Positions 777-34,226 of a DNA stretch of 38,981 nucleotides are shown one piece after another. Origin of the DNA: Conexivisphaerales archaeon (lineage in GTDB: Archaea; Thermoproteota; Nitrososphaeria; Conexivisphaerales; UBA164); NCBI GenBank assembly GCA_030756715.1, contig JAVBJD010000008.1, positions 1 to 38,981 on the forward strand, read 5' to 3'. A program made the position numbers and the translations under genes. Below the pieces are notes generated by a model. The model was not told where the DNA came from and searched no databases. It saw only the letters and a list, made by a program, of their open reading frames with translations. Numbering within the stretch: the stretch's first letter is position 1; every line of letters starts with the position of its first letter.

Positions 777-1238
777 TTATGCGTATATAAGAGCTTCAAC
801 CGGAGCTTCTTTTGAAACCTCTAATATCTGAAAAGATTCATACCTTTCTATCCCATCAACAGAAGTTATTTCTTTGAGTTGCTTCATAATCTCCTGAGTA
901 TTTTTTGCTACGCTGACAACTATGAGGTCGTAAGAACCCGTTGTTATAAATATGTGAGAAACGTAAGCCAGCGGTTTGATAAGCTCTGCAACGTCTTTTG
1001 CAGAATTTCCTGGCTTTATTTTTATGCCAACAGCATACATTACAAGGTTTAACGCATTAGCATCTATCAGAGGTATAAAAGAATTTATTATCTTGCTTTC
1101 CTGTAACTTCTTTATTCTTTTGCTTACTGTTGAAGTTGAAAGGTTCAACCTCTGCGCTATCTGCCTGTATGAAAGCCTGCAGTCACCAGCCATGCATTTT
1201 AATATCTGGATATCTACTTTATCCAGTTGTTTTTTCAA
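777..1238 (-). CDS. Lrp/AsnC family transcriptional regulator
   Basis: N-terminal HTH 'LDKVDIQILKCMAGDCRLSYRQIAQRLNLSTSTVSKRIKKL' plus RAM-type C-terminal domain. Confidence 0.92.
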   Translation of the reverse strand: MKKQLDKVDIQILKCMAGDCRLSYRQIAQRLNLSTSTVSKRIKKLQESKIINSFIPLIDANALNLVMYAVGIKIKPGNSAKDVAELIKPLAYVSHIFITTGSYDLIVVSVAKNTQEIMKQLKEITSVDGIERYESFQILEVSKEAPVEALIYA

Positions 1239-11041: not shown

Positions 11042-11797
11042 TTAGCTCACCCCCGAAGGAATTTTAGGTTGTTTCCCGGTTCTTCTTGAATATCTTTCAT
11101 AATAGTTCCAGATTATCTGATACAGAGCGTGTGAAAACTTGGTATAAGGCATCGTTATAAAAAGCAAAAAGACTATAGACATGTGGACCCAGAAAGCTGC
11201 GGCTACCCAGTAGACAAAAAAGAACTCGATAACTTCAAGCACAAACCCTGTTAACACCGTCAGCACAAGCAGTACTATAAAAAGATCAGTTCCTGTAATT
11301 CTTGAACTGGATTCGCCTCTAAACCGTGAGGGCCAGTATATTATAAAGCCAATGAGCACGAGTATTCCTCCGATAGTGCCCAAGCCGAGTTCAACGGCCT
11401 CTCCAAGAGGACCTAAATAGTAAGATGGCAAAAAGGAGCTCTGGTTAACCCACTTGTCAAATATAAAACCTGAGATCGTTGAAAATATCAGCATTATGAA
11501 GCCGTAGAAGAGAAGAAGATGAGCGGTCCTTTTTGAATGAGGCTTTTTTGAATAATAAGCCCCCGTGTGGCACTCCGAAAGCGGTTCTGAAGCCAGAATA
11601 TCGTAGACGAAAACTTCTGCGAGAGCCTTGATTGAAGCTGAGGCTTTCCCTTCAGAAACAGACGGCCCTTTAACGGGGAATATGTTATAGGATCTGACCT
11701 TGCCTCTATATATTTCAATTGCAAATTCAATTATAAGAATAGCAAGAAGCGCAAACCCTGCGTAATCTATGAATGCGTGGTTTATCGGTAGTATCAT
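11042..11797 (-). CDS. aprM: Cytochrome b-like membrane protein of the AprM/QmoC-C-terminal/NarI-like type
   Basis: 251 aa, about 5-6 TM segments, several His in helices (KRTAHLLLFYGFIML, AAAFWVHMSIVFLLFI); directly upstream of aprBA. Confidence 0.7.
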   Translation of the reverse strand: MILPINHAFIDYAGFALLAILIIEFAIEIYRGKVRSYNIFPVKGPSVSEGKASASIKALAEVFVYDILASEPLSECHTGAYYSKKPHSKRTAHLLLFYGFIMLIFSTISGFIFDKWVNQSSFLPSYYLGPLGEAVELGLGTIGGILVLIGFIIYWPSRFRGESSSRITGTDLFIVLLVLTVLTGFVLEVIEFFFVYWVAAAFWVHMSIVFLLFITMPYTKFSHALYQIIWNYYERYSRRTGKQPKIPSGVS

Positions 11798-11965
11798 TTT
11801 TTCTCAACTGAAAGTTATCCTGATTTTATTTAAAATAATTATTTCAATGAATTGGGAACAAATTTTTACGCAATCTGTGTATAAAATCGTTTTTTGTTCA
11901 CTTTTACATGGTTACAGAATTTGGTTTATGCTAGTTCGCGTTTATATTGATATAACAAATCATAC

Positions 11966-12802
11966 TTGTACGTTTTCGACCGAGGTTCAAGAAGACTTCT
12001 AGCTTATCTTTATCATGTTCTTTTTCTGTTAGGAATAAACATTAAATCAAACCGAAATTCATCATGGGTTGTGGAAAGTTCGAGGAAAAGCTGTACTGTA
12101 TATATTGTTGGGAGCGGTCCCGGAAATAAAGGCCTACTTACTGTAATGGGTTATAAAGTGCTCAAAAAAGCAGAAGTGCTCATCTATGATTACCTTATCC
12201 CCAATGAAATCATTGATATTGCACTCCCTGGCTGCATAAAGATTCCTCACCAAAAAGGAGAAACAGCTGACCAACGCCAGAAAAAATTTGAAGAAGCTGT
12301 GCTTAATTACTGTGAGACCAAAAAAGTTATAGTAAGGCTTCAGATAGGTGACCCTTTTCTTTTTGGAAGGGGAGATGAAGAGATAAAATTCTTGAGAAAA
12401 AACAGAATAAAGTTCAGAGTTATACCGGGCATAACGAGCGCCATCGGAGTTCCTACCTATGCCGGATTACCTGTTACATCCAGAGGCGTTTCGTCATCAG
12501 TTACGATAATAAACGGACACCCTTTAAAAGAGGGAGAAATCAACTGGGAAGCTTTAAAGAATGTTGGCGGAACGATAGTCATAATGATGGGTATTTCAAA
12601 CTCGGAAAAGATATCTTCAGAGCTCATCAAGAACGGTTTTGATCCTGCAACTCCAGTATGCGTTATCTCTAACGGCACAACGCAATATCAGAGGGTTGTC
12701 ATCACAGATCTTAATAACATGCCTTATGAAATAAAGAAAAACAAAATAAGCTCGCCCGGAGTTATTATAGTTGGCAAAGTCGTCCAGGAGTTTATGACAT
12801 GA
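11966..12802 (+). CDS. sumT: Uroporphyrinogen-III C-methyltransferase; true start probably near the GTG at 12071
   Basis: 'VYIVGSGPGNKGLLTVMGYKVLKKAEVLIYDYLI', 'RLQIGDPFLFGRGDEE', 'VIPGITSAIGVPTYAGLPVTSRG'; the N-terminal 35 aa of the ORF are not SUMT-like. Confidence 0.93.
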   Translation: MYVFDRGSRRLLAYLYHVLFLLGINIKSNRNSSWVVESSRKSCTVYIVGSGPGNKGLLTVMGYKVLKKAEVLIYDYLIPNEIIDIALPGCIKIPHQKGETADQRQKKFEEAVLNYCETKKVIVRLQIGDPFLFGRGDEEIKFLRKNRIKFRVIPGITSAIGVPTYAGLPVTSRGVSSSVTIINGHPLKEGEINWEALKNVGGTIVIMMGISNSEKISSELIKNGFDPATPVCVISNGTTQYQRVVITDLNNMPYEIKKNKISSPGVIIVGKVVQEFMT

Positions 12803-13556
12803 ACTTTTCTATTGCTTTACACAGATATCCACACTTTAATTCATCCAGAGGAACCGTTAGATTGGAACAAAACTTATAGCATCCAGCACACATATAAATA
12901 TGCGCGAGCTTTTCTGAAAAATTCAAGCCTACAAAGTATTTTTTAGCCCCGATTATCATATCATCACCGTTAAGATCGGCAGCTTTAGGCCCGATTTTCC
13001 CGATTATGTACCTTGCCATATCCTTCTGAACCGTTTTATTCCCGCTATTGTTCTCAGAAAAAATCATAGCAGCCATAATCATTATCATCGGGTTTTCCAA
13101 AAGGGTTACGTCGTTCGGGTTCATTATTTTTGGAAGCGAATAAAGAATTGAGTTCATCCACTTCATTTCACTTTCATCAACCCCCCATCTGTACATCAAC
13201 CTTGAGGTTAGCTCGTTATTCTTTAGGCACCCATAAGCCCAGCAGGTGAATATGCCTTTTACAGTAGCTTTGTAAACTGATTTGCTCCTTCTATCTTCTG
13301 GTCTTTCTACTTCAATCGATTTTATAAGGCCATCTTTAGAGAGCCTTTTTGCTTTTTTATAAATCGACGAAATGCCGTATGGCAGCATTCTTGTTATCCT
13401 GTAAAGCGATACTGGTTCATAGTGAATGATATAAGTTAAGATCTCTAAAGCTATAGGGTCGTACGAACGTGATGATTTTCTTATAGCCTCACGCATTTCA
13501 GATAAAAAATTCGGTTTTACAATTTCCCTTTCCGAGTGAGGCATCAATTTACCCAA
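12792..13556 (-). CDS. Winged-helix DNA-binding protein with C-terminal Cys-rich motif; candidate sulfur regulator
   Basis: wHTH-like 'EPVSLYRITRMLPYGISSIYKKAKRLSKDGLIKSIEVERPEDRRSKSVYKATVKG'; C-terminus 'YMCAGCYKFCSNLTVPLDELKCGYLCKAIEKF'. TTG at 13556 or ATG at 13544 could be the start. Confidence 0.7.
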   Translation of the reverse strand: MGKLMPHSEREIVKPNFLSEMREAIRKSSRSYDPIALEILTYIIHYEPVSLYRITRMLPYGISSIYKKAKRLSKDGLIKSIEVERPEDRRSKSVYKATVKGIFTCWAYGCLKNNELTSRLMYRWGVDESEMKWMNSILYSLPKIMNPNDVTLLENPMIMIMAAMIFSENNSGNKTVQKDMARYIIGKIGPKAADLNGDDMIIGAKKYFVGLNFSEKLAHIYMCAGCYKFCSNLTVPLDELKCGYLCKAIEKFMS

Positions 13557-13568
13557 ATTTATTGTGCC

Positions 13569-13616
13569 TTATTTCACTTATAAAGGTTGTTAAAGATTCA
13601 CAAAAAAGTGAAATAA
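13569..13616. promoter_or_regulatory. 10-bp inverted repeat flanking the TATA-like box of the winged-helix gene
   Basis: TTATTTCACT at 13569-13578 and AGTGAAATAA at 13607-13616; TATA-like TTTATAAG on the minus strand lies between. Confidence 0.65.
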
Positions 13617-13620
13617 AACA

Positions 13621-14967
13621 TTACATAAATTTTTGCAACAACATTTTGTTCAAAAAATTGTAAGTTTCAGGATGAATGTGCATAAAGCTGGCGTACGCGT
13701 TTTTTATATAAACCCCATCAAATCCCTCAATGCCATTGCCCTTTAGATACTTTAAAGTAAAAATTTCTCTGCTTTTCATTATCATCTTTGTATAATGAAA
13801 TTCATGACCTTTCAGAATCGTTCCCTTACTGGCTATTATATTATCCTTTATGACTTCCCCTGTTACATAACCGTGACCCACAGGCTCGTTCATGACTACA
13901 GCATAAGCGTCTATAACTCCAGACATCCTGTACTCAGATCCCATGTAAGCTATAGCATCAGCTAAATAGATAAGCCCCCCGCATTCGCCATAAAAAAGCT
14001 TTCCTTTTTCAACATGATCCTTAACAGACTTCATAAAGGGTTTGTTCTTTTCTAACTGTTCTGCATAAACTTCAGGAAACCCTCCCCCGATTATCAGCAT
14101 GTCAGCATCAACATAAGCATCTTTCTCAGGATCAACAAATTTAACATCGCCTACTTCTGAAGCGAATTCAATGGTTTCCGGATAGTAAAAAGAAAAGGCC
14201 CTCCCGAGCGCTATTGCTATCTTGAGTTTTTTCATGGAAGGCTTTTCACGCTCGGTAGCCTGAAAACCAAGAGGATCCGATCTTTCCTTTGCGAGCTTTA
14301 AAACTCTTTCAGCGTCTATATTCTGAGAAGCCAGAGATGAAGCCAGCGTTATGGCATCTCTTCCAGTTTCGTTTGCGTGAACAAGTCCAAGGTGTCTGTA
14401 TGCCATTATTTTTTCCAGCGTTCTGTCTCTCTTTATCGTGCCTACTACTTCAACGTCCTCACTTTCAACAGCTTTCCTGATCTTTTGTTCTTGGCTTCCC
14501 ACCACATTGGTGAGTATAACGCCAGCTATCTTTACTTTACTGTCAAAATCCCTCAATCCTTTTATCAGGGCCCCTGCGGTTCTGTTTATCCTTTCGCCAT
14601 TTATTACAATAACCACTGGGGCTTTCAGAAGCTTTGCCATCTGCGCGGTGCTTCCTTCTTCGCTTTCCCCATCGGGGCTGTCGTAAAGTCCAGCAACGCC
14701 CTCAATGATAGCTATATCCGAACCCGAAGAATACCTGCAGAACCTTTCAACCACTTTGTTTCCCATTAAAATTTTATCCAGGTTCCTGCTGGGTTCTCCT
14801 GTAACCGCTGCATGATAGCTCGGATCTATGTAGTCAGGTCCAACTTTGAACATGGAAACCCTGTATCCGCGGGCAATCAGAGAACGGGCTAAAGCTATAG
14901 AAGCTAAAGTTTTACCGTTTTTTCCTTTATAGGATGAAACAATTAACCTGGGAGTTTCACATTCCAT
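13621..14967 (-). CDS. dsrN: Cobyrinate a,c-diamide synthase family; by context DsrN (siroheme amidase)
   Basis: 'GKNGKTLASIALARSLIARGYRVSMFKVGPDYIDPSYHAAVTG', GATase motif 'GKLFYGECGGLIYLADAI'; directly downstream of dsrC. Confidence 0.9.
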   Translation of the reverse strand: MECETPRLIVSSYKGKNGKTLASIALARSLIARGYRVSMFKVGPDYIDPSYHAAVTGEPSRNLDKILMGNKVVERFCRYSSGSDIAIIEGVAGLYDSPDGESEEGSTAQMAKLLKAPVVIVINGERINRTAGALIKGLRDFDSKVKIAGVILTNVVGSQEQKIRKAVESEDVEVVGTIKRDRTLEKIMAYRHLGLVHANETGRDAITLASSLASQNIDAERVLKLAKERSDPLGFQATEREKPSMKKLKIAIALGRAFSFYYPETIEFASEVGDVKFVDPEKDAYVDADMLIIGGGFPEVYAEQLEKNKPFMKSVKDHVEKGKLFYGECGGLIYLADAIAYMGSEYRMSGVIDAYAVVMNEPVGHGYVTGEVIKDNIIASKGTILKGHEFHYTKMIMKSREIFTLKYLKGNGIEGFDGVYIKNAYASFMHIHPETYNFLNKMLLQKFM

Positions 14968-14971
14968 CCGT

Positions 14972-15307
14972 TTATACGCATCCCGTGGGCTTTGGTGCGC
15001 CTGCTACCTTGCATGCTCCGTGAGCTGGTCCGTCAGGGAAAAGCTCGTATATGCTTTCCAAAGTTTCACCGGTTTCCTTTAACAGTATCTTTACAGGAGG
15101 ACATACACCATAGGTTTCCCAGTATTTTCTAAGATACCTTATAAGCTTCCAGTGCCTTTCAGTAAGCTGCGTTATTCCTTCTATGTTTATAGCCATCCAC
15201 TCTGCTACTTTCTCATCCCACGCTTCAGGATTCTGAAGAAAACCGTCTTCGTCTATCACAATTTTTTTGCCGTTTACTTCAAATTCTCCGGGGTAATTTA
15301 CAACCAT
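14972..15307 (-). CDS. dsrC: DsrC/TusE family sulfur carrier, full DsrC type
   Basis: C-terminal arm 'GPAHGACKVAGAPKPTGCV' with both redox cysteines (CX10C). Confidence 0.97.
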   Translation of the reverse strand: MVVNYPGEFEVNGKKIVIDEDGFLQNPEAWDEKVAEWMAINIEGITQLTERHWKLIRYLRKYWETYGVCPPVKILLKETGETLESIYELFPDGPAHGACKVAGAPKPTGCV

Positions 15308-15378
15308 TCTGTTTCACCGAAAAAAACTAACTTGTTGTTTATAATTAAGCGTTATTCGACAAAAAAGGGAAATAACTT

Positions 15379-16506
15379 TTAGACGTACTTGATAAATTGC
15401 CTTACTCCAAAGTTCCAGCTAACTTCTATACATGCGTTGTGTCTCGATTTTGGAACCCCTACCTGTCTCATGAACTCTTCAAGCCCAATTCTGTCGATCG
15501 TGTCCCCTATCCTTTCTCCGGGTTCGGCATTTTTCTTCCAGACATCGACTATCTTCCTTACAACAGCCACTACTTCTCTATATTCCGGAGGATTTAGAGG
15601 AACCCAGGGTACTATCCTGTAAGCCAGCCTTGGACCTGAGCCTGTGTTGCTCGTCTTCCCCCCTACAAAAACGCCCACGCCTATCTTGTCCGGATCCCAA
15701 TCAAAGTAATCGCACACGTTCTTGCACCTGCCACAGGCTATGCACCTTTTATCGTCAACTTCAATACCAACTGAACCGTCTTCCTTTGCATAAAGCTTGA
15801 TAGCATTTACAGGACAAACAGCCGCAACATCAGGAGTTACCTTTTTCAGAGCTTCTGCTGAAGTTGGCAGACAGAACTTTATCTTTTCCGGATCTGGCTT
15901 TGGAGCCTGCCCCCAGTGGCCAACAACAACTATATCTCCTGCTAACGTGCCTGCGCATATGTTGGTGCATCCCGAAACAAAAATATCCAGTTTCGATGGT
16001 AGCTTTTCTTCCCCTGTAAAGTAAGGCATGAAGTAATCATAAAGCGCCTTTGTTATAGAAGGTGCATCTACTGCAAAGGTTGAACATGTAAGGTATGCCG
16101 TACAAGAAGTTATGTGCCAGAGGCTGTTTTCCCAACCTCCCGCCGGAAAGCCGTAACCTTTCATGACATCGACTATCTTCTTCGCTTTATCAAGCGAATC
16201 GGTGATGAATTCAACGTTCATACCTCTGGTTGCTCTAACTACCTTTAGTCCGTAGCTATCAGCTACATCTATTATCTTTTTCAGCGTGTCAACGCTTATT
16301 CTTGAGTTTGGTGGAAGCCCAACCTTTACTGTAAAAATACTTTCTCCGCTTTCAGATATGTGTTCTATTATTCCGTTGCCGTGGAACTTTCTGTCAACCC
16401 ACTTTCCATAGTTTCTTTTGATTATGTCCGGGAACTGTGCGGCGTAAGGCATAGGAAGCCTCTTGTTTATCCTTTCAGACGGGTCTGGAACAAAAGTTTC
16501 AGCCAT
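15379..16506 (-). CDS. dsrB: Dissimilatory sulfite reductase beta subunit
   Basis: Paralogous to upstream ORF; siroheme-cluster cysteines 'CTAYLTC'...'GCTNICAG'; ferredoxin domain 'CIACGRCKNVCDYFDWDPDKIGVGVFVGGK'; gene order dsrA-dsrB-dsrC. Confidence 0.93.
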   Translation of the reverse strand: MAETFVPDPSERINKRLPMPYAAQFPDIIKRNYGKWVDRKFHGNGIIEHISESGESIFTVKVGLPPNSRISVDTLKKIIDVADSYGLKVVRATRGMNVEFITDSLDKAKKIVDVMKGYGFPAGGWENSLWHITSCTAYLTCSTFAVDAPSITKALYDYFMPYFTGEEKLPSKLDIFVSGCTNICAGTLAGDIVVVGHWGQAPKPDPEKIKFCLPTSAEALKKVTPDVAAVCPVNAIKLYAKEDGSVGIEVDDKRCIACGRCKNVCDYFDWDPDKIGVGVFVGGKTSNTGSGPRLAYRIVPWVPLNPPEYREVVAVVRKIVDVWKKNAEPGERIGDTIDRIGLEEFMRQVGVPKSRHNACIEVSWNFGVRQFIKYV

Positions 16507-17742
16507 TTACTGCTCACCTCCATAGTAATCTTTGACCAAACTCTTAGCCCATTCTGCGTATGTAACCCTTTCATCATCTGAAAGGACAACGCCTGTTGTA
16601 AACCTTAAATGCGATGATGGAGCAGCCTTCGGCTTGTCAGGAAGCGTTTCTTTTGCCGCATCGCTTATGAGCCTGAACCCTCTTCTGAGTATGAGGTCTG
16701 CAAGCCTGTGCCTCCTCGGCGCATTGTTCGAGTAGATATCTATAACCTTAAGTATAAACGGCAATGCTTCCTTGTAGTCATCAAGAAGCGCCACACCCCA
16801 GCTTAGCCTTGGCCCATAGTGGGCCTGCGCATGTGAACCTACAAGCATAGCTATCTTCCTGTTCTTTCCTGGCTTTATAGCTGGAAACGCCATCTTTATA
16901 CAATTCATTGCCTTAAGACATCTGTCTCCATCTATCTTAAGCTGCTGCTTGTCATCATCCCATGAGATTGCCCCTGAAGGACATCTCTTCGCCAGCTCTT
17001 TCGGGTCAACCTTGCCGCTCTTTATCATCTCCCTGAGCTTTTCCTGATCCACTTCTGGAGCGCCGACCCATGTCCCTATAAAGGTAAAATCTGACCTGGC
17101 GTTTGCTCCGGCGCAATCGAACGGGCATCCACTGAACTTCATCTTTAGCTTGTACGGAAAAAGCTGGGTGTTAAGGAATTTGTAAATCTCAGGATGGCTC
17201 CTGAAAAAATCCATTGCGGCAAGCGTGTCATAAAGAGCAAACTCGCAAAGAGCTGGACCTGGACAGGCATAAAATTCCCTGAAAGTATCGCCTGAACCGC
17301 CAACGTCAGAACCCATGACGTTTCTTATTATGTCTATGGCCTGGTCAGCCTTATCAGGCTGTATGTTTATCACTATTGCACCAGTGTTCCCTGCAAACTC
17401 CAGCAACCCTATTCCATACTGCTCTGCAACGTAAGCTATCTTCTTTAAATAAGCGGTTGATAGGAACCTTCCAGCTGGAGAATAGGTCCTGAAGTGAACC
17501 TCTGATACTTTACCATCTCTCGATCTTCTGGCAAGGATACCGCTGAATACGTACCTTACCCTGAATGAGCCGCTGTACCATGGAGAATACTTGTGCATTA
17601 CCCCCCATGCATAATACTCTATTGGATACCTGGTTTTCTTTAACTCTGTAACGTGGCTAGGCCATGGACCTTTCTCGAGTTTTTCAAGAGCCTTCATATC
17701 ATCCTCTGAAATTTTCTGTTCCCTGATGTCTGAAATCGTCAT
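16507..17742 (-). CDS. dsrA: Dissimilatory sulfite reductase alpha subunit
   Basis: 'CPGPALCEFALYDTLA' and 'KFSGCPFDCAGANARSDFTFIGTW' (CX5C...CX3C), 'HYGPRLSWG'; followed by dsrB. Confidence 0.95.
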   Translation of the reverse strand: MTISDIREQKISEDDMKALEKLEKGPWPSHVTELKKTRYPIEYYAWGVMHKYSPWYSGSFRVRYVFSGILARRSRDGKVSEVHFRTYSPAGRFLSTAYLKKIAYVAEQYGIGLLEFAGNTGAIVINIQPDKADQAIDIIRNVMGSDVGGSGDTFREFYACPGPALCEFALYDTLAAMDFFRSHPEIYKFLNTQLFPYKLKMKFSGCPFDCAGANARSDFTFIGTWVGAPEVDQEKLREMIKSGKVDPKELAKRCPSGAISWDDDKQQLKIDGDRCLKAMNCIKMAFPAIKPGKNRKIAMLVGSHAQAHYGPRLSWGVALLDDYKEALPFILKVIDIYSNNAPRRHRLADLILRRGFRLISDAAKETLPDKPKAAPSSHLRFTTGVVLSDDERVTYAEWAKSLVKDYYGGEQ

Positions 17743-17859
17743 TTTAATAATACTTTAAATCGGGTTTTAAAATCAGTTATTACACCTTATAGTGTAATAA
17801 AAAATGTTATAAAAAATCGTGTAATAATCATTTAAAATTATTAATGGAGAAAATAATCC
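17743..17859. promoter_or_regulatory. Divergent dsrA / dsrM promoter region with a perfect palindrome
   Basis: TTATTACAC-CTTATA-GTGTAATAA at 17777-17800 and an extra GTGTAATAA at 17819-17827; TATA-like TTTTAAAA (minus strand, ~17765-17772) and TTTAAAAT (17831-17838) adjoin the half-sites. Confidence 0.75.
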
Positions 17860-18777
17860 ATGACAATTGTAAATTACGTTGCATATGCCGCCTATCTTTC
17901 TTTTGTTTTCTGTGTCGTCATAACGATCTTAAAGGTCAGCAAATACGCCAGAGCTCCTATGCACCTAAGGTGGGAACTTTACCCTGTTCCTTCTGAAGAA
18001 GAACACGAACACGGAGGGTCTTATCTGGAAAGGCCAGAATGGTGGAAGACTGATATCAAAGAAGAAAAAGGTTCAGAGCTCATCGATATGTTCAAAGAGA
18101 TGATATTTATAAAAAGGCTTTATAACAGCAAACGAACCCAATGGTATTTTAGTTTCCTTTTTCACGGTGGCATATATTTGCTCCTGATATGGTTTGTAGC
18201 TATTTTTATAGGAAGCCTTTTTGAGCTTCTAAAAATCACTTCAGGTATTCTTTTTACAGTGTTTTTTTATGCTTCTTTGGTTCTCGGTTATATTGGGATC
18301 TCTATAACGTTTATAGGGGCTGTTGGGCTTATAGCGTTAAGGGCAACAGATAAAAAGATCAACTACCTTTCTGCTCCGGTAGATTACTTTAACCTTTCAT
18401 TTATATCGCTTATCATGCTGTCGATGATATTTTCGCTCTTTTATGACCCTTACTTTAACTATGCGAGATCTTTCCTAGCATACCTGATAAGCGGAAACGG
18501 TTTGCTTATAGGCGTTAAACAACCGGCTTTGCCCGTTGCATCTTCTATAACTGTTCTGCTTGTATGTCTTTTCCTGCTTTATTTGCCTTTTACAAAAATG
18601 ACCCACTTCCTCGGAAAATATTTTACCTATCATAAGGTTCAGTGGGACTCAAGGCCTAACATGGTAGCGGAAAGGTTCGATGAAAAGAAGTTAGAGCTCA
18701 TCAAGAAAAACCTCGACCTTACAGTTCCATGGGATGCACCGCACGCTCCTAAAGGAAAAAGGTGGGATGAAGTATGA
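17860..18777 (+). CDS. dsrM: DsrM, membrane cytochrome b subunit (NarI/HdrE-like), copy 1
   Basis: 305 aa, multiple TM segments with conserved His; 4-nt overlap with dsrK; divergent from dsrAB. Confidence 0.88.
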   Translation: MTIVNYVAYAAYLSFVFCVVITILKVSKYARAPMHLRWELYPVPSEEEHEHGGSYLERPEWWKTDIKEEKGSELIDMFKEMIFIKRLYNSKRTQWYFSFLFHGGIYLLLIWFVAIFIGSLFELLKITSGILFTVFFYASLVLGYIGISITFIGAVGLIALRATDKKINYLSAPVDYFNLSFISLIMLSMIFSLFYDPYFNYARSFLAYLISGNGLLIGVKQPALPVASSITVLLVCLFLLYLPFTKMTHFLGKYFTYHKVQWDSRPNMVAERFDEKKLELIKKNLDLTVPWDAPHAPKGKRWDEV

Positions 18778-20375
18778 GCAAAACGGTTGATCCTAAAGAA
18801 TTTTCAAGAGAAAACAGAGAACCCCTGATAAAGATAAAGCTTGAAGATCTGTTAAAGCTCGAAGGTTTAAAAGAAGAACCTCCAATAAAAGATCCTCCTG
18901 CTGTATGGACTCAGAGGTATGACTTCACCCTCGATGGACATGCCGCCGTTGGAATTCCGATACCGAAAAATGAAGAAGAAAAAAGGGCTCTTGTAGAAAA
19001 GTTCCTTAATGGGCTTGAAAAAGACCTGAGTTATGAAGGTAACTGGACTTTTGCGCAGCAGTTCAAACTTTCTCTAGATTACTGCGCAAAGTGCGGGGCC
19101 TGCGAGGATGCGTGTCCTATCTATACAGCTAGCGGTAAGCAGAACATCTACAGCCCGCTATACCGTTCGGAAATTCTCAGAAGGATATACAGAAAACACT
19201 TTACAGCTGCCGGAAAACTTTTCGGAACCTTGGTTACAGGTGATATGGATGAGACCTGGCAGCTAATAACGAGGCTTATAGAGCTATCTTACAGGTGCAA
19301 CATATGCAGAAGGTGTGCACAGGTATGCCCGATAGGTATAGATAACGGACTAATAGCGAGGGAAATAAGAAAAATAGCAAGCCAAGAGTTAGGTATAGCT
19401 GCTAAAGAACTGCACGAAAACGGCACTGTGCTCCAGCTAAAGGTTGGTTCAAGTACCGGTATGAACCCTGAAGGCTTTAAAAAAATAGTAAAAATGATGG
19501 AAGAAGATATAGAATCCAAAACCGGATTAAGGATCAAGATTCCCGTAGATGAAAAAGGAGCGGATATACTTCTTATACATAACGCCGGTGAATTCCTTTC
19601 GTGGCCAGAAAATCCTGAGGCCTATGCGATAATATTTGAAAAGGCTGGCCTGAGCTGGACTCTGAGCTCTGAGCCCGTAGGCTATGATTCAGTAAACTAT
19701 GGAGTCTGGTACGATGATATTCAGCTAGCAAGAATAGCAAAAAAACACGTTGAAATAGCTCACAAACTAGGCGTAAAAAGGATCGTCGTAGGTGAATGCG
19801 GACATGCTACAAAAGCGCTTGTAGTTACTGCAGAAAGGCTCCTTACCAGAGAAAACTACATACCACGAGAAAGCGTGCTTCCCATACTAGCAGAAATAGT
19901 CGATAAAGGCAAGCTAGACCTGGACCCTCTTAAAAACGATTTTCCTGTAACACTTCACGACCCGTGCAACATAGTCAGGCTTTCTGGAATTGTGGAACCG
20001 CAGAGAAAAGTTCTGAAAAAGATAGCTCCGCGTTTTAGAGAGATGGAGCCACACGGAGTGTGCAATTACTGCTGCGGAGGCGGTTCTGGGTTTGCTATAA
20101 TGCACTCATATAATTTTGATCAGTGGAAAAACAAAGTTGCTTCCAGAATGAAAGTTAAACAGATACTTGATGCGTTCAGACAAGAGTTAAACGATGGTGG
20201 CTTTAAGTATGTTTGCGCTCCGTGCAGCAACTGCAAAGGAGAAATAAGAGATTTTATTTCGCACTATAAGCTCTGGGATAAGTTCAGGATAAATTATGGA
20301 GGTCTTGCAGAGCTTGTAGTGAACGCAATGAACGAAGTTAAAAATCCTTACATAACAAATAACGAATTCCATTAA
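18774..20375 (+). CDS. dsrK: DsrK, HdrD-like Fe-S subunit, copy 1
   Basis: 'CAKCGACEDACPIY', 'CNICRRCAQVCPIGID', CCG motif 'CNYCCGGGSGF' with 'CAPCSNCKGE'. Confidence 0.92.
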   Translation: MSKTVDPKEFSRENREPLIKIKLEDLLKLEGLKEEPPIKDPPAVWTQRYDFTLDGHAAVGIPIPKNEEEKRALVEKFLNGLEKDLSYEGNWTFAQQFKLSLDYCAKCGACEDACPIYTASGKQNIYSPLYRSEILRRIYRKHFTAAGKLFGTLVTGDMDETWQLITRLIELSYRCNICRRCAQVCPIGIDNGLIAREIRKIASQELGIAAKELHENGTVLQLKVGSSTGMNPEGFKKIVKMMEEDIESKTGLRIKIPVDEKGADILLIHNAGEFLSWPENPEAYAIIFEKAGLSWTLSSEPVGYDSVNYGVWYDDIQLARIAKKHVEIAHKLGVKRIVVGECGHATKALVVTAERLLTRENYIPRESVLPILAEIVDKGKLDLDPLKNDFPVTLHDPCNIVRLSGIVEPQRKVLKKIAPRFREMEPHGVCNYCCGGGSGFAIMHSYNFDQWKNKVASRMKVKQILDAFRQELNDGGFKYVCAPCSNCKGEIRDFISHYKLWDKFRINYGGLAELVVNAMNEVKNPYITNNEFH

Positions 20376-27887: not shown

Positions 27888-29289
27888 CCTTCACGCTGCC
27901 TCTCGGTTTAAACTGCGAATTAGGTCCTAAAAGCTTTTTCGCAGCGTACTCAGACCTGTGCTTTGGACATAGCTCAAGCCACTCGTCATCAACTTCCATT
28001 CCCTGTTTTTTCATAACTTCTTTTATGTGGTTTAACGATCTCCTTGATCCGACTGGAGCTCCACAAACTCTGCACTTTACCAAATAATCCTTTGCCAGCA
28101 CTTTCTTTTCACTCTTTCCCCTATTTACCTTAATAGCCTTTCCAGATCCATCTTTTGAAGACACAGGACATACGTTTATACAAATGTTGCAACCTATACA
28201 CGGCTCAGGATCAAACGTTAGCGCTTCCTGGCCATCTATGTTTTCGATCTTCAAAGCAGAAACTGGGCACCACTTTGCACATGCTTCGCATAAAGTGCAT
28301 GAGTCATCAACTTTAACATCGTAAGATAGAATGTCTTTGAGTTTATTCTCTGTAAATTTCTTACTTAAATCTGAACGCTTCTCAACGCTATCAAGTCTAA
28401 TAGTAAATGGTGCGGGTTCTACAGACTCCTCTGTATTCCCCCTTATTTCAAACTTTATCCCTCCTATCACCGAATTTACGGTCCTTACATCTTGTTTTAA
28501 CTTTTCAAGGTTCTTCTCAAGTTCGCAACCAACGCATTTAAGATAAACTTCTCCAGAGCTTCTCAAAGCTAAAAGATCCTCTAGAGAAAGCATCGCTATG
28601 CAAGGTAACTTTATCGAGTTTCCTTTATCTTTATAGCAAGAAATCGTTTTGTTTCCTTTTAAAGTTGATAGGTCAAATATTGAACGCTGCGGCGCAGAAG
28701 GAAACTGTAGCGCGCTTTCTGGACAAGAAGCAACGCATAGGCCGCACGCTGTACATTTTTCATAGTCTATCTTTACTCCACTCTTTTTGTCAACGGTAAT
28801 TGCGTTGTAAGGACAAGAATCCTGACAAACTGTACATTCCCTATAAAGATAACCGCAGTAATCAGATATGTAAACGGGCTTATCAACCCTGTCCTTGCCA
28901 ACCTTTACCGCCCCCCTTATTACCTCTCTCCTGCTAAGGGGCAGTGTAATGTCTATTTCCTGAGCTTTATCAGCAACAAAGTTACGCTCTAACATAACAG
29001 TATTCTGCGCTATGGCTTCATCTCCCCATCTATAATCAACAACCCTTAAGAGTAGCGGGTTTAGGCCAGCTTTTAGCGCGGCTTCCCTGTAAAGTTTTAA
29101 ATGGGCCTCATCATAAACTCCTACAATTATCAATCCGTTTATGTTAAGCCTTTTTATAAAATCGGCAAGCTCTGCTGAATCGCATGTTTTTACTTCCCCT
29201 GAAGGATTATGTTCACAACCGTGTTTTAAAATGCCTATCTTATTTTTCGTAGAATTAATAAAATAATCAGAAAAACCCATCTGTTTCAC
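27880..29289 (-). CDS. sreD: Polyferredoxin with C-terminal zinc-ribbon-like Cys motif (SreD-like)
   Basis: Several CxxCxxCxxxC clusters (CTACGLCVASCPESA, CTLCEACAKWCPVSA, CIGCNICINVCPVSS) plus 'VKCRVCGAPVG'. Confidence 0.8.
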   Translation of the reverse strand: MKQMGFSDYFINSTKNKIGILKHGCEHNPSGEVKTCDSAELADFIKRLNINGLIIVGVYDEAHLKLYREAALKAGLNPLLLRVVDYRWGDEAIAQNTVMLERNFVADKAQEIDITLPLSRREVIRGAVKVGKDRVDKPVYISDYCGYLYRECTVCQDSCPYNAITVDKKSGVKIDYEKCTACGLCVASCPESALQFPSAPQRSIFDLSTLKGNKTISCYKDKGNSIKLPCIAMLSLEDLLALRSSGEVYLKCVGCELEKNLEKLKQDVRTVNSVIGGIKFEIRGNTEESVEPAPFTIRLDSVEKRSDLSKKFTENKLKDILSYDVKVDDSCTLCEACAKWCPVSALKIENIDGQEALTFDPEPCIGCNICINVCPVSSKDGSGKAIKVNRGKSEKKVLAKDYLVKCRVCGAPVGSRRSLNHIKEVMKKQGMEVDDEWLELCPKHRSEYAAKKLLGPNSQFKPRGSVKDD

Positions 29290-30458
29290 TTAAATATCCA
29301 GAGGTGTTTTGGCTTTTCTCCTTCTTCCAAGGGGAATATCAAGGCTCCAAGCGCATACAGGCTAGGCCAGAGTATACATGCTCCTATGAACATCATCAGA
29401 AGCCCGGTTGGCGGGAAATAAGAGTAGTTTGATATCTGTAAAGTAAGCCACACGTAAGGTCTCAGTTCTTGCGGCAGTACTATCAGAGAGTATTTGCTCA
29501 TAAAACCACCTATTATCAAAAGAACAGCAGCTGTTATGGCTGCCCAAGAGCTCTTTTTCATGTATCCGTAAACAGCAAGGGCAACAGGTATGAATATTCC
29601 TAGCACCATTTCTACCCCCCAGAATATTACGGCTTCGCTTCCAAAAAGCAGAGTCTGGTAAACGGGCCATACGGTTTCTCTGCTATACCATGCTGATATT
29701 ATGATCCAAGTCAAGTACATCAAATATGAAGGTATCGATATAAGGTAAACTTCGCTGTAGTAACGACTCATAAAAGCTTTCAGGTTGCTGTCTTTGTGTT
29801 TAACTACGTATATGAAAAGAGACTGTCCTGCGGCACCAAGCATAATGGCGCTCATTATAAAGTAAAGAGCCAGCCAAGGACCGTACCAGGCAGGCATAGA
29901 AATTAGGCTCCCGAATACTTCACCGAGGTTGCTGTGCACTGCTATCGTGGCTATAAGTACGAGAATAGCTATAGCAAGCTCTAAGTACTTTATCCTTCTA
30001 AGCAGGTCCCATGACTCAACAAGTATCATATAGAGAAGCTCTATGACTAGCATTAGAGCGAAGAATGTGTAGAATGCTGCCATCCAGGCTATTCTTGAAG
30101 ACATCCTGAAGAACAGCAGTATATAGTAAAAGTCAAAAGGCTTGTATATGCCTAAAAGTACGAGCAACCAAGCTGAAAATATTGTAGATAGAGAGAACCA
30201 TACTCCGTATTTTATTATCTTTTTGTACTCTCCGTTCGGCCCGTTGTAACCAAATATCGTGTATACGCTGTTAACTATGCTTGAACCAGTCGCCATCAGT
30301 GCAAAGAAGGTATAGCCAACGACGTCAAGCCCCCACGGTACGTCAAAAACCTGCTCTTCAACCTGATCAAGCTTGTAGCCATAATAAGCCATTCCTAGAG
30401 CTATAAGTATGAGCACGATCGAAATAACAGCCACAGCTACTTTCTTTCCTGTATTCAT
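29286..30458 (-). CDS. sreC: NrfD/PsrC-type membrane anchor subunit (SreC-like); ORF track start 30506 trimmed to Met at 30458
   Basis: Polytopic protein; ATG at 30458 lies just after the sreB stop (TGAAATG), avoiding a 47-nt overlap. Confidence 0.82.
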   Translation of the reverse strand: MNTGKKVAVAVISIVLILIALGMAYYGYKLDQVEEQVFDVPWGLDVVGYTFFALMATGSSIVNSVYTIFGYNGPNGEYKKIIKYGVWFSLSTIFSAWLLVLLGIYKPFDFYYILLFFRMSSRIAWMAAFYTFFALMLVIELLYMILVESWDLLRRIKYLELAIAILVLIATIAVHSNLGEVFGSLISMPAWYGPWLALYFIMSAIMLGAAGQSLFIYVVKHKDSNLKAFMSRYYSEVYLISIPSYLMYLTWIIISAWYSRETVWPVYQTLLFGSEAVIFWGVEMVLGIFIPVALAVYGYMKKSSWAAITAAVLLIIGGFMSKYSLIVLPQELRPYVWLTLQISNYSYFPPTGLLMMFIGACILWPSLYALGALIFPLEEGEKPKHLWIFK

Positions 30459-30459
30459 T

Positions 30460-31146
30460 TCATTCTTCACCTCCGTTTTCAACGTACCTGCCCTGCTGTT
30501 TTCCAAAAATGTACCTTACCTTAGATCCTACACCAAGCTCTGGATTTATTTCCACAGCCTGACCGGTGTTAAACAGTATTGAAACTTCACTGTTTGGATC
30601 GTCAAGGCACCCGAACACCCTCGCTCCTCCTACACATGTCCTTACACAGGCTGGCGTGTTAGTGTCGTCTGGCGCTGTTCCATAGCAGAAGGTGCATTTA
30701 TCGACATGAGGGACAACATGTATTGTGTTTTCTCCATAGTATTCTTTAGATTTTTCAATATCTTCATAAGTATACATATACCTCGCGCCAAAAGGACATG
30801 CTTCAACACAGTACTGGCAGCCTATGCATTTGTACTCGTCAACTACGACTATTCCACCATCAACTATCTGAGTTGCACCTGTTGGGCAGACATAATAGCA
30901 AGGCGGATTCTCACACTGCATGCAAAGCCTTGGTAAAAAGACCCTTTGCGAGTTCGGATAATCCCCGAGTTCATAATCTTCTACATGAGTCCTCCAGAGC
31001 TCGTTCCAGAATGGGGTCTGGTTTTCAAGAGTGCATGCGGCAACGCATGCATCACATCCCATACACTGGTCTACCTTTATGACCATTCCCCAGTGATTAC
31101 ATTCTCCTGTGTTCTTAAAGCCCTGATAGGGGTTTTGCTGACTCAT
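30460..31146 (-). CDS. sreB: PsrB/TtrB-type four-cluster ferredoxin subunit (SreB-like)
   Basis: '[15 protein letters not shown]', '[17 protein letters not shown]', '[16 protein letters not shown]', 'CTFC...CVRTC'. Confidence 0.9.
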
Positions 31147-31151
31147 TTTTT

Positions 31152-34100
31152 CTACGCACCTCCATTAGTAGAATTAGTATAATTTGGAGCTGTGCTCTCC
31201 TGAGAAGGCAGCTCTGTCGAAACTTCAGCCACAGCCGTAAACTGGCTTATTTCTGCGGCTGTAGCCTTTCTAACATTTACCGTAAACTGCTGTATCATCC
31301 TGTGACCTGTCAGCGGGTCGTAGCTCTTTGTCCAGATTTCTGTTACAGCCTTGTTGCCAAAGCTGTCTAGAGAGTTTATAGAATAGCTCTGGGCCGGATT
31401 TGACTGCCCCCATGGCATGGGCACACCTATTGTATCGGGTCTTATCATTTCAGTTAAATGCACTCTAGCTGCTATCTGTGCGCCTGTTATGTTGTTCGTT
31501 ACAACTATCCAGTCCCCTTCGTTCAGACCCATGCTTTTCGCTACGTCTTTGTTCATCCATATGTACTGGAGTATGTTCTTATGATAGCTGTTCGAAGTCA
31601 AGGCGTATAGCACTGGAATATCTGCTGTATATATGTATGCTATCTGCGGTACTTTGTATTCTACGTGGAAGAACTCTGGGGGTGTTGGCCTAAAAGCCGG
31701 ATCACTGTATGGAGCTGAAGGCTGCTGATAAGTTCCCGGGCTTATAGCGTATCCAGCATTCCAGTCAGGGGGGACGTACTGGATCAAAGGATCCCAAGTC
31801 CTGTCATAACCGAAATTTTTAACCACATAATAATAAAGTATAGTTGAATAAACCTCTATCCTTCCAGATGGTAGCCCTGCAGGTACGTTCCATGGAACCC
31901 TCATGTTATTTTGTACATAATCATCCCAGGTATTGACCGTTATTACCCCCTGAGTCTTGAGCTGATTCATTACGTCTTCGGGTTCTACGTTCAACTTTGA
32001 GGCAATTATAGCGCTCTGAACATCGTTGAACGCCTTGCCCGTAAATTCTCCCCAAACAGGATAAATGCCGGTAGAGTTAAGCTGGTTGAGGTATGGCTGC
32101 ATTTCTTTCTGCATGGCAGCGATAAGCTGGTCTGCAGGTAGTCCGAGAGCGTTTGCCATGACAGTTATGTATTCGTTAAAGAAACCCAGCTCGTAGGAAA
32201 GCAAAACAAAAGTATCGAGCTCGGGTATTGCATACGGGTAAACACGAGGAACAGCCTGCCACCTCTTTCTGTAACCAGAATCGGGTGTAGCTCCTCTGTC
32301 CGTTATCGGCTCGTCCCTTTCTATATAAGTTGCATCAGGCAGTATTACGTCTGCATAAAGCGTTGTATCAGTAGGTAAGACGTCTATCATGACAACAAAT
32401 GTGTTGCTAAGTATCTCTTTCCACTCTGATTCCTGCATATCCTTAGCTGGATTTACGCAGCAAGCCATTATCATCTTTATGTTATAAGGCTGGTTGTTCC
32501 ACTGAACCTTGTTATTAATAGATTCATATATACCCGTATCGGGGAAAAGTGAATACACTGCTGCTGGCTTTAAGCCCTGAGAAATTAAGGTTGAGTTATA
32601 AGCGGCTGCTACGGAAGGATGGCCATGCTGCCAGAAGTTAGGATTGTTAAACACCAGAGCTGTAGCAACGTATTCCATCATCTGACCGGGTAAGTTCATT
32701 ACTGGCACAGACATCAGAACTTCAGGTCTCTGTATAAGTATCCCTGGCTTTATCTTGCCCGAGCTTACTGCAGAATTATAAGCCTGATAAAGCTTGTAAG
32801 CCGATTCCCTCCATGCGCCGCTGTATAACCATCCTCCCCTTACATCTATGCTGCCCTTCAGAGCCATTATTATAGCTGTGGCCCTTCTCCACTGAGTTGT
32901 ATAGCTGCCCTGAGATCCTCTAAGCCCTGTCCCTATTTCTACTGGAGACGCCGTTGCAACTTTGTTATAAAATTGCTTTATGAGAGAGCTATCTACATCA
33001 GCAAGTTTTGATACGTAATCTATGCTGAAACTTGAAACACGATCTGAAAGAAACATAAAGAAAGTTTTTAAAGTTTTTCCGTCTTGAGTTTGGAGACCCG
33101 ATACGTGAAGAGCAGGGATTATCCTTCTTCCATCAACGGTATAAGCGTTGGTGTTTGTGTAGGGGGGCACATCAACTATCTTCCCTGAAATTTCGTCATA
33201 AACTTTGAACGCCTTAACTGTTCCGTCTTCGTAAGTTGAGACATATGGATGTATTATTCCGTTTTCTTCATATCCTAAAAATGGAGAATCTGTGTAATAC
33301 CTTACAAAATTATCGTCATAATAATTGTTTTCTATCAAGTAATTTATAAGTCCCATAGCTAAAGCCAAGTCGCTCCCTGGTTTTGCGGGAATCCATAAAT
33401 CGGCTTTTGATGCCGCTTCGCTTACACGTGGATCTATAACAATAACATAGGCGCCGTTTTCAAGACCTTTCCCAAATCTAGCCCCTTTATTAACGAATAC
33501 TCCTGCCGGGTTTCCGTTACTTCCCCATAAAACAATTACTGGAGAATATTCAAAATCGTCAACCAAATCAAGACCGTGGGCGTCAAAACTACCGACCGTA
33601 AGGTTTATCCCGAGCTGTTCCCCGAACAAGCAGGGCTGCATCGGGCTGCCAGCCATGTTCGGTATCTGCGAAGCCATCATAAATGGGATAAGCTCCGGCC
33701 TGTAGTTTGCGCAAGGTATAGCTCCGCCTCCCATAGCTATTTCCCATGGCTGTACATTAAGCTCCTGCATCTTCTGCTTTATATAGCTTATAGCTTCGTC
33801 CCAAGTAGCTTCTTTAAAAGACCACGTGCCCTTTGGGCCTGTCCTTATAAGCGGTTTTTTGATCCTGTCCTTGTTATAAGTTATCATGGTACCGCTCCTT
33901 CCTCTTGCACAAAGCTTACCAAAATTTAGTGAAGAGTTTGGGTTTCCATCTATTTCTACAGCCCTTATATAATTTCCTTTTTGCTCTACATAAACAAGGG
34001 CATCACACACAGAAGAACATATCCCGCACATAGTTGGAGAGTATGTATAAGAATAACCTGGCAAAGGTTGCTCATAATCTGTCTGCAACGAAAGAAGATT

Positions 34101-34226
34101 AAAGGAAAACTTGCCCTCTGCAGCACCAATCGCATAAACAATACCTGCGGCAACTACCGCGCTGCCTGTTATTTTTATAAAATCACGCCTGGCAACATCT
34201 ATTTTCTCTTTACTATCACTGGCCAT
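31152..34226 (-). CDS. sreA: Tat-exported molybdopterin oxidoreductase catalytic subunit (sulfur/polysulfide/tetrathionate reductase family, SreA-like)
   Basis: Twin-arginine '[10 protein letters not shown]', cluster '[15 protein letters not shown]...LCARG', MopB-type sequence, size and five-gene order A-B-C-D-E as in sre cluster of Acidianus. Confidence 0.88.

Follow-up and report, generated by a model that had tools for sequence, protein, structure and literature searches.

A winged-helix protein with a four-cysteine tail and a shared promoter box in archaeal dissimilatory sulfite reduction clusters: a likely local regulator

The window, the whole 38,981-nucleotide stretch of DNA analysed here, is contig C63 of the 1.26-Mb genome of a Conexivisphaerales archaeon (JAVBJD010000008.1). 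It contains a cluster of dsr genes. An open reading frame for a 254-aa protein, placed between sumT and dsrN by a first-pass annotation, is found there and is called REG below. Its neighbours also include apr and sat. The genes around it are:

11966-12802, plus strand: sumT-like gene, assigned from sequence, convergent with REG, the 3' ends overlapping by 11 nt
12792-13556, minus strand: REG, 254 aa from TTG at 13556 or 250 aa from ATG at 13544
13621-14967, minus strand: dsrN (CobB/CbiA-type amidase)
14972-15307, minus strand: dsrC
15379-16506, minus strand: dsrB
16507-17742, minus strand: dsrA, top match TIGR02064 (E 2e-97), strong but under the model's curated cut-off
17860-18777, plus strand: dsrM-like membrane subunit, assigned by its position adjoining dsrK
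18774-20375, plus strand: dsrK, top match NF045796, strong but under the curated cut-off

The dsrA of the window has full-length homologues in other dsr archaea; the dsrM-like subunit has no match in NCBIfam. The presence of dsrAB has been reported in the Nitrososphaeria families UBA164 and UBA183, and the phylogeny points to Vulcanisaeta/Pyrobaculum (PMC10833072). The only other transcription factor noticed in the window is an Lrp/AsnC-family regulator at 777-1238 (minus strand), near the window edge and outside the dsr cluster. A separate cluster at 29286-34226, encoding a 1024-aa protein resembling molybdopterin oxidoreductase, a 4Fe-4S protein and a membrane subunit, is possibly a second sulfur-respiration system of the psr/sre-like kind.

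REG consists of a DNA-binding fold, a helical middle and a small domain that carries the tail. Its parts map to the minus strand as follows:

13266-13457, minus strand: winged helix-turn-helix (wHTH), residues about 34-97 in TTG numbering, from AF2 and generic wHTH Pfam/PDB matches only
13227-13244, minus strand: C105-x4-C110, directly after the wing, from the family alignment
12795-12968, minus strand: C-terminal beta-beta-beta-beta-alpha domain bearing the Cys tail, from AF2
12819-12890, minus strand: Cys cluster C223-x2-C226-x3-C230-x11-C242 plus C246

The AF2 model, built on a 23-row alignment (pLDDT 77.7, pTM 0.72), has a confident winged helix with pLDDT >90 at residues 31-70. The C-terminal domain scored 80.8 when modelled alone and had no Foldseek match in the PDB (best E 1.5). 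The top Foldseek match of REG was a MarR-type winged helix, ZitR (E 4e-3), and a viral fold search returned generic wHTH only. In the model the central helices look like an effector or dimer region. No curated Pfam or NCBIfam family scored above its cut-off against the window protein: MarR (PF01047) reached 14.4 bits under a gathering score of 24.6, PadR (PF03551) 18.0 under 27, and the F-93 winged helix (PF22194) 21.6 under 28. Among all REG members the best E for F-93_WHD was 1.6e-5. The family is previously uncurated, with no name and no curated family beyond the winged-helix part.

The first-pass annotation had read from the sequence a wHTH and a cysteine-rich C-terminal tail, and both stand. 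The tail, MCAGCYKFCSNLTVPLDELKCGYLC, is present as quoted; C223, C226, C230 and C242 do not vary among the aligned members that have a tail (20/20), all of which have the pattern C-x2-C-x3-5-C-x4-11-C, while short members have no tail. C246 is not conserved and differs in genome G006. The annotation had overlooked the pair C105/C110, found in 26/26 and 24/26 aligned family members respectively, where the wHTH is followed by G-x3-C-x4-C. This pair is kept more widely across the family than the four-Cys tail. A YkgJ-like CxxCxxCC reading of the tail in the sister genome G003 was dropped; the window tail lacks the third Cys and has no Pfam match.

The promoters of the cluster share a sequence box, whose sites in the window are:

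17777-17800, minus strand: perfect palindrome TTATTACAC-N6-GTGTAATAA, 4 nt upstream of the dsrA TATA (17765-17772)
17819-17827, plus strand: half-box GTGTAATAA, 3 nt upstream of the dsrM TATA (17831-17838)
15352-15375, minus strand: dsrC promoter box TTATTTCCC-TTTTTT-GTCGAATAA, 3 nt upstream of TTAATTAT
13593-13616, minus strand: REG promoter box TTATTTCAC-TTTTTT-GTGAATCTT, about 8 nt upstream of TATA
13577-13584, minus strand: TATA-like TTTATAAG of REG, TTTTTAAG in G003
13569-13579, minus strand: proximal arm of an 11-bp inverted repeat, AAGTGAAATAA, AAGTTACATAA in G003

Upstream of TATA, the gap to the proximal half-box is 2-4 nt at the dsrA, dsrM and dsrC promoters and about 8 nt at that of REG. 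TTATTWCAC occurs in five copies in the window against 0.99 expected, a count reached in 0/100 shuffles, and all five fall in the dsrA/dsrM and REG promoters. The longer TTATTWCACN6GTGWA matches three times where 0 are expected: at the dsr palindrome, once on each strand, and at REG. TTATTWCAC-N6-GTGWAATAA-like sites are present in the compared genomes G000, G003, G004 and G006, perfect at dsrA/dsrM and imperfect at dsrC and REG. The dsrA palindrome is the only match with no mismatch in each of G000, G003 and G004, and the dsrC box is identical in G003 and G004 and reads TTATTTTAC-GATTTT-GGGTAATAA in G006. When 361 kb of G003 were scanned with a position weight matrix, the four best scores were all dsr-cluster promoters, a partly circular result as the matrix was built from those sites. 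G003 has an additional GTGTAATAA (L004:9556-9564) next to an integrase-like ORF, 70 nt ahead of sumT.

At its own promoter, REG had been proposed to repress itself through a perfect 10-bp inverted repeat around the TATA-like box. A perfect repeat is indeed present at 13569-13616, with arms of 11 bp (TTATTTCACTT at 13569-13579 and AAGTGAAATAA at 13606-13616) set 26 nt apart, and the motif common to the REG and dsr promoters is confirmed. The 91%-identical sister genome G003 (L004), the closest relative that has REG, keeps the distal arm unaltered; its TATA-side arm reads AAGTTACATAA, with two changes and the GTG core lost. Five of the approximately seven substitutions between the two REG promoters lie in or beside that arm. 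The loss of the proximal arm in G003 led to rejection of the 26-nt-spaced repeat as the primary operator, and autorepression through it is not supported. What is conserved is TTATTTCAC-N6-GTG[AT]A, with spacing equal to that of the dsr palindrome, an imperfect proximal half and, like the dsr promoter sites, a position upstream of TATA. The G006 REG, away from dsr, keeps TTATTACAC upstream. To judge from these comparisons the functional DNA element is probably TTATTWCAC-N6-GTGWAATAA and not the long-spaced repeat. The dsr and REG promoter sites first annotated are real; the dsrC site and the dsrM half-site had been missed.

Co-occurrence was surveyed in 398 Thermoproteota genomes from 164 genera, with REG taken at E<=1e-7 and dsrA at E<=1e-40. 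REG and dsrA were each found in 33/398 genomes and together in 25 (25/33 vs 33/398, p=5e-26), and among genera REG was found in 9, dsrA in 9 and both in 8 (p=7e-12); the genomes are related and both p values overstate independence. The two genes share a contig in 19 genomes, 1.2-7.3 kb apart, and at the remaining REG loci examined REG adjoins dsrC, dsrN, hdrD2, apr or sat. REG relatives occupy the matching place in most heat-loving archaea with the sulfite-reduction pathway. The dsr linkage suspected from the window is thus strong across Thermoproteota, in co-occurrence and in physical linkage with dsr/apr/sat, and homologues are mostly not spread broadly apart from dsr/apr without the Cys motif. 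Two of the carriers beyond the 25 have REG following sat (G436) or near apr/sat (G485), and several others adjoin DsrC-like genes. Short tail-less forms adjoin dsrC, dsrA or apr/sat (L077, L081, L083). Boxes are present and REG was not detected in G004, whose contig ends in dsrN, and in G009; MAG incompleteness is assumed to lie behind some absences.

A three-sequence profile search of the class found full-length homologues only in G000, G003 and G006, and elsewhere in Thermoproteota the same profile gave strong matches, best in the Vulcanisaeta-like genus g129 (E to 4e-60). The window protein groups with g129 members in the REG tree (support 81/69), with long branches that call for caution. 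Genus g129, a lineage separate from the UBA164-like genomes, has two paralogues, REG1 and REG2, that flank apr-sat in the order dsrBA / orf114, dsrM-like, hdrD2, REG1, aprM, aprB, aprA, sat, REG2, sumT, dsrN. In G006 a transposase-like ORF (11385-12362) interrupts dsrK (L043:10972-13597), and the end of G006 contig C10 repeats an adenosine-deaminase-like gene and the REG 3' end at the contig edge (L046:11206-12643 and L047:6078-7542), by duplication or as an assembly artefact. In family f33 (L158, L160, L164; L166-L169) distant REG relatives adjoin DsrC-like genes, and others adjoin membrane proteins that look PsrC/NrfD-like.

The half-box recurs at the matching position in g129. It was scored there as GTGDAATAA lying 20-48 nt ahead of the start codon and oriented with the gene. 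It precedes 13/41 ORFs in two Vulcanisaeta-like dsr loci with a matched background of 3/372 (p=6e-12), and 32/133 dsr-locus ORFs across g129 against the same 3/372 (p=4e-17), both p values overstating independence among related genomes. Boxed genes include dsrA, aprM, sat, sumT and orf114, the nitrate-reductase-gamma-like dsrM2, and genes for a TauE-type transporter and for a pyridine-nucleotide oxidoreductase. Where dsr, apr and sat promoters were inspected, 2-4 nt separate the end of the box from the TATA that follows; the arm spacing of the box is 6 in UBA164-like genomes and 7 in g129. The g110 dsrA site is TTATTTCAC-N7-GAGGAATAA, upstream of TTTTTAAAC. Searched genome-wide with one mismatch, TCACN7GTGDAATAA showed no excess over a reversed-pattern control (e.g. 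22 vs 17 in G500), and its concentration in the cluster is apparent only by position. A variant of the box showed no significant enrichment in f33 (3/35 vs 5/86, p=0.69; upstream slices were flawed for ORFs at contig ends). By eye, a variant GTGTTAATAA lies upstream of the dsrC and dsrA TATA in f33 (L077, L082).

Taken together, REG is likely a local transcription regulator of the dissimilatory sulfite/sulfate-reduction genes, predicted to bind the shared box and to sense through cysteines. It probably serves as a sulfur- or redox-responsive switch of the pathway promoters. The best reading is a thiol- or metal-type regulator, whose ligand, box binding and sign of action we infer; sulfite, sulfide or persulfide as the sensed compound is a conjecture. 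A REG dimer would bind the imperfect palindrome TTATTWCAC-N6-GTGWAATAA through its winged helices at the dsrA, dsrM and dsrC promoters and at its own, the GTGnAATAA half abutting BRE/TATA. The four-Cys C-terminal domain, as a metal or Fe-S site, and/or C105-x4-C110 would act as the sensor of redox or sulfur state, with DNA binding or TBP/TFB recruitment changing in response. Promoter-proximal activation, which would work by contact with TBP/TFB, appears somewhat more likely than repression because of the near-constant 2-4 nt distance from box to TATA at the dsr promoters and the separate dsrA and dsrM sites.

Repression is a serious contender, if held a little short of even, because the box overlaps the expected position of BRE. 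REG would then repress dsr and itself by blocking TFB/TBP beside BRE/TATA, until sulfite, persulfide or Cys oxidation releases it, as in the first-pass annotation but from the conserved site. The bacterial sulfane-sulfur sensors sHdrR and SoxR are repressors (PMC12423496, PMC10451225), and the second half-site at the window REG promoter overlaps TATA. However, the conserved sites neither cover TATA nor follow it but precede it at an almost constant distance, and the TATA-side arm is lost in G003.

The cysteines admit another reading, credible though distinctly the less probable one, in which the tail is a structural zinc site and the effector is a small molecule held in the central helical domain. 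It would fit the likeness of the central helices to an effector/dimer region and the short homologues in dsr/apr context, which keep the wHTH and C105 without the tail. Against it, two independent Cys sites are conserved in what would be a sulfur-metabolism regulator.

It is unlikely that another factor reads the box, whether a TFB/TBP variant, Lrp or a third wHTH of Vulcanisaeta-like genomes, and that REG controls something else nearby. The third wHTH, a distant relative in the g129 dsr cluster (L066:16954-17628, minus strand; orthologues in L067, L070, L071, L073 and L076), is a 224-aa protein without the Cys tail that has GTGAAATAA in its own promoter, and as an alternative it may be the box binder in g129. 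The REG1 and REG2 promoters there have no dsr box, and G009 has the box where REG was not found. In place of the box, the REG1/REG2 promoters (L066, L067, L070, L071, L075, L076) carry conserved TGCA-N5/6-TGCA and TATTCAACTGAATA palindromes. The third wHTH, however, was not found in the five UBA164-like genomes searched, box-bearing ones included, and the Lrp gene lies outside the cluster. No wHTH family other than REG was found in the clusters of both lineages.

That the repeat and box are an AT-rich coincidence with REG a bystander is strongly disfavoured and very improbable; the arms are AT-rich and chance matches are common among short two-copy repeat families, but no box match was expected in the window, and the positional enrichment across lineages and genus-level co-occurrence speak against it.

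Compared with known systems, REG has features of several. MsvR, a methanogen HTH + V4R redox regulator (PMC3729527), likewise has an N-terminal HTH, a Cys-bearing C-terminal domain and autoregulatory upstream boxes, and redox-dependent DNA binding as in MsvR is proposed for REG by analogy. MsvR differs in its V4R domain (PF02830), which a Pfam scan of 23 REG members did not find, in its motif, and in its role in methanogen oxidative stress, where REG is linked to dsr/apr/sat. MarR, F-93, PadR and TrmB proteins share the winged-helix DNA-binding fold, but the match is confined to the winged helix of REG, is sub-threshold for the window protein, and leaves the rest without a curated family. The sulfur-responsive SurR of the Thermococcales, an ArsR-like protein, has its CxxC within the HTH, and its sites are GTTn3AAC. 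It resembles REG as an archaeal wHTH over sulfur/energy genes, with a Cys-based switch that for REG is only proposed; in REG the cysteines follow the wing and lie in the tail, and its cluster motif is TTATTWCAC-N6-GTGWAATAA. No REG member matched ArsR-named families in Pfam or NCBIfam. sHdrR and SoxR have paired cysteines, and DsrD has a small wHTH fold. The former, bacterial ArsR-type repressors, also regulate sulfur-pathway genes (PMC12423496, PMC10451225), whereas REG is without an ArsR family match, longer, has an extra four-Cys domain and would act at archaeal promoters. DsrD, like REG a wHTH protein of dsr clusters, is cited in PMC10833072 as activating DsrAB allosterically; it is a short protein that partners the bacterial DsrAB, while REG has a regulator-like architecture of ~250 aa.

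The archaeal enzymes of dissimilatory sulfite reduction, an energy metabolism of ancient origin, have been mapped well. No named archaeal transcriptional regulator of it was found in the searchable literature, which is weak evidence as subscription papers fall largely outside the search, and the dsr evolution papers searched do not discuss one. There is about an even chance that REG and the dsr box form a conserved circuit for dissimilatory sulfite/sulfate reduction in Thermoproteota that entered Nitrososphaeria together with the dsr genes, and that the four-Cys domain of REG is a new sensory domain unmatched among solved structures. The REG C-terminal domain is a new candidate Cys-based sensor domain, and the regulator-box pair, conserved in Vulcanisaeta-like and Nitrososphaeria genomes, opens control of the pathway to direct testing.
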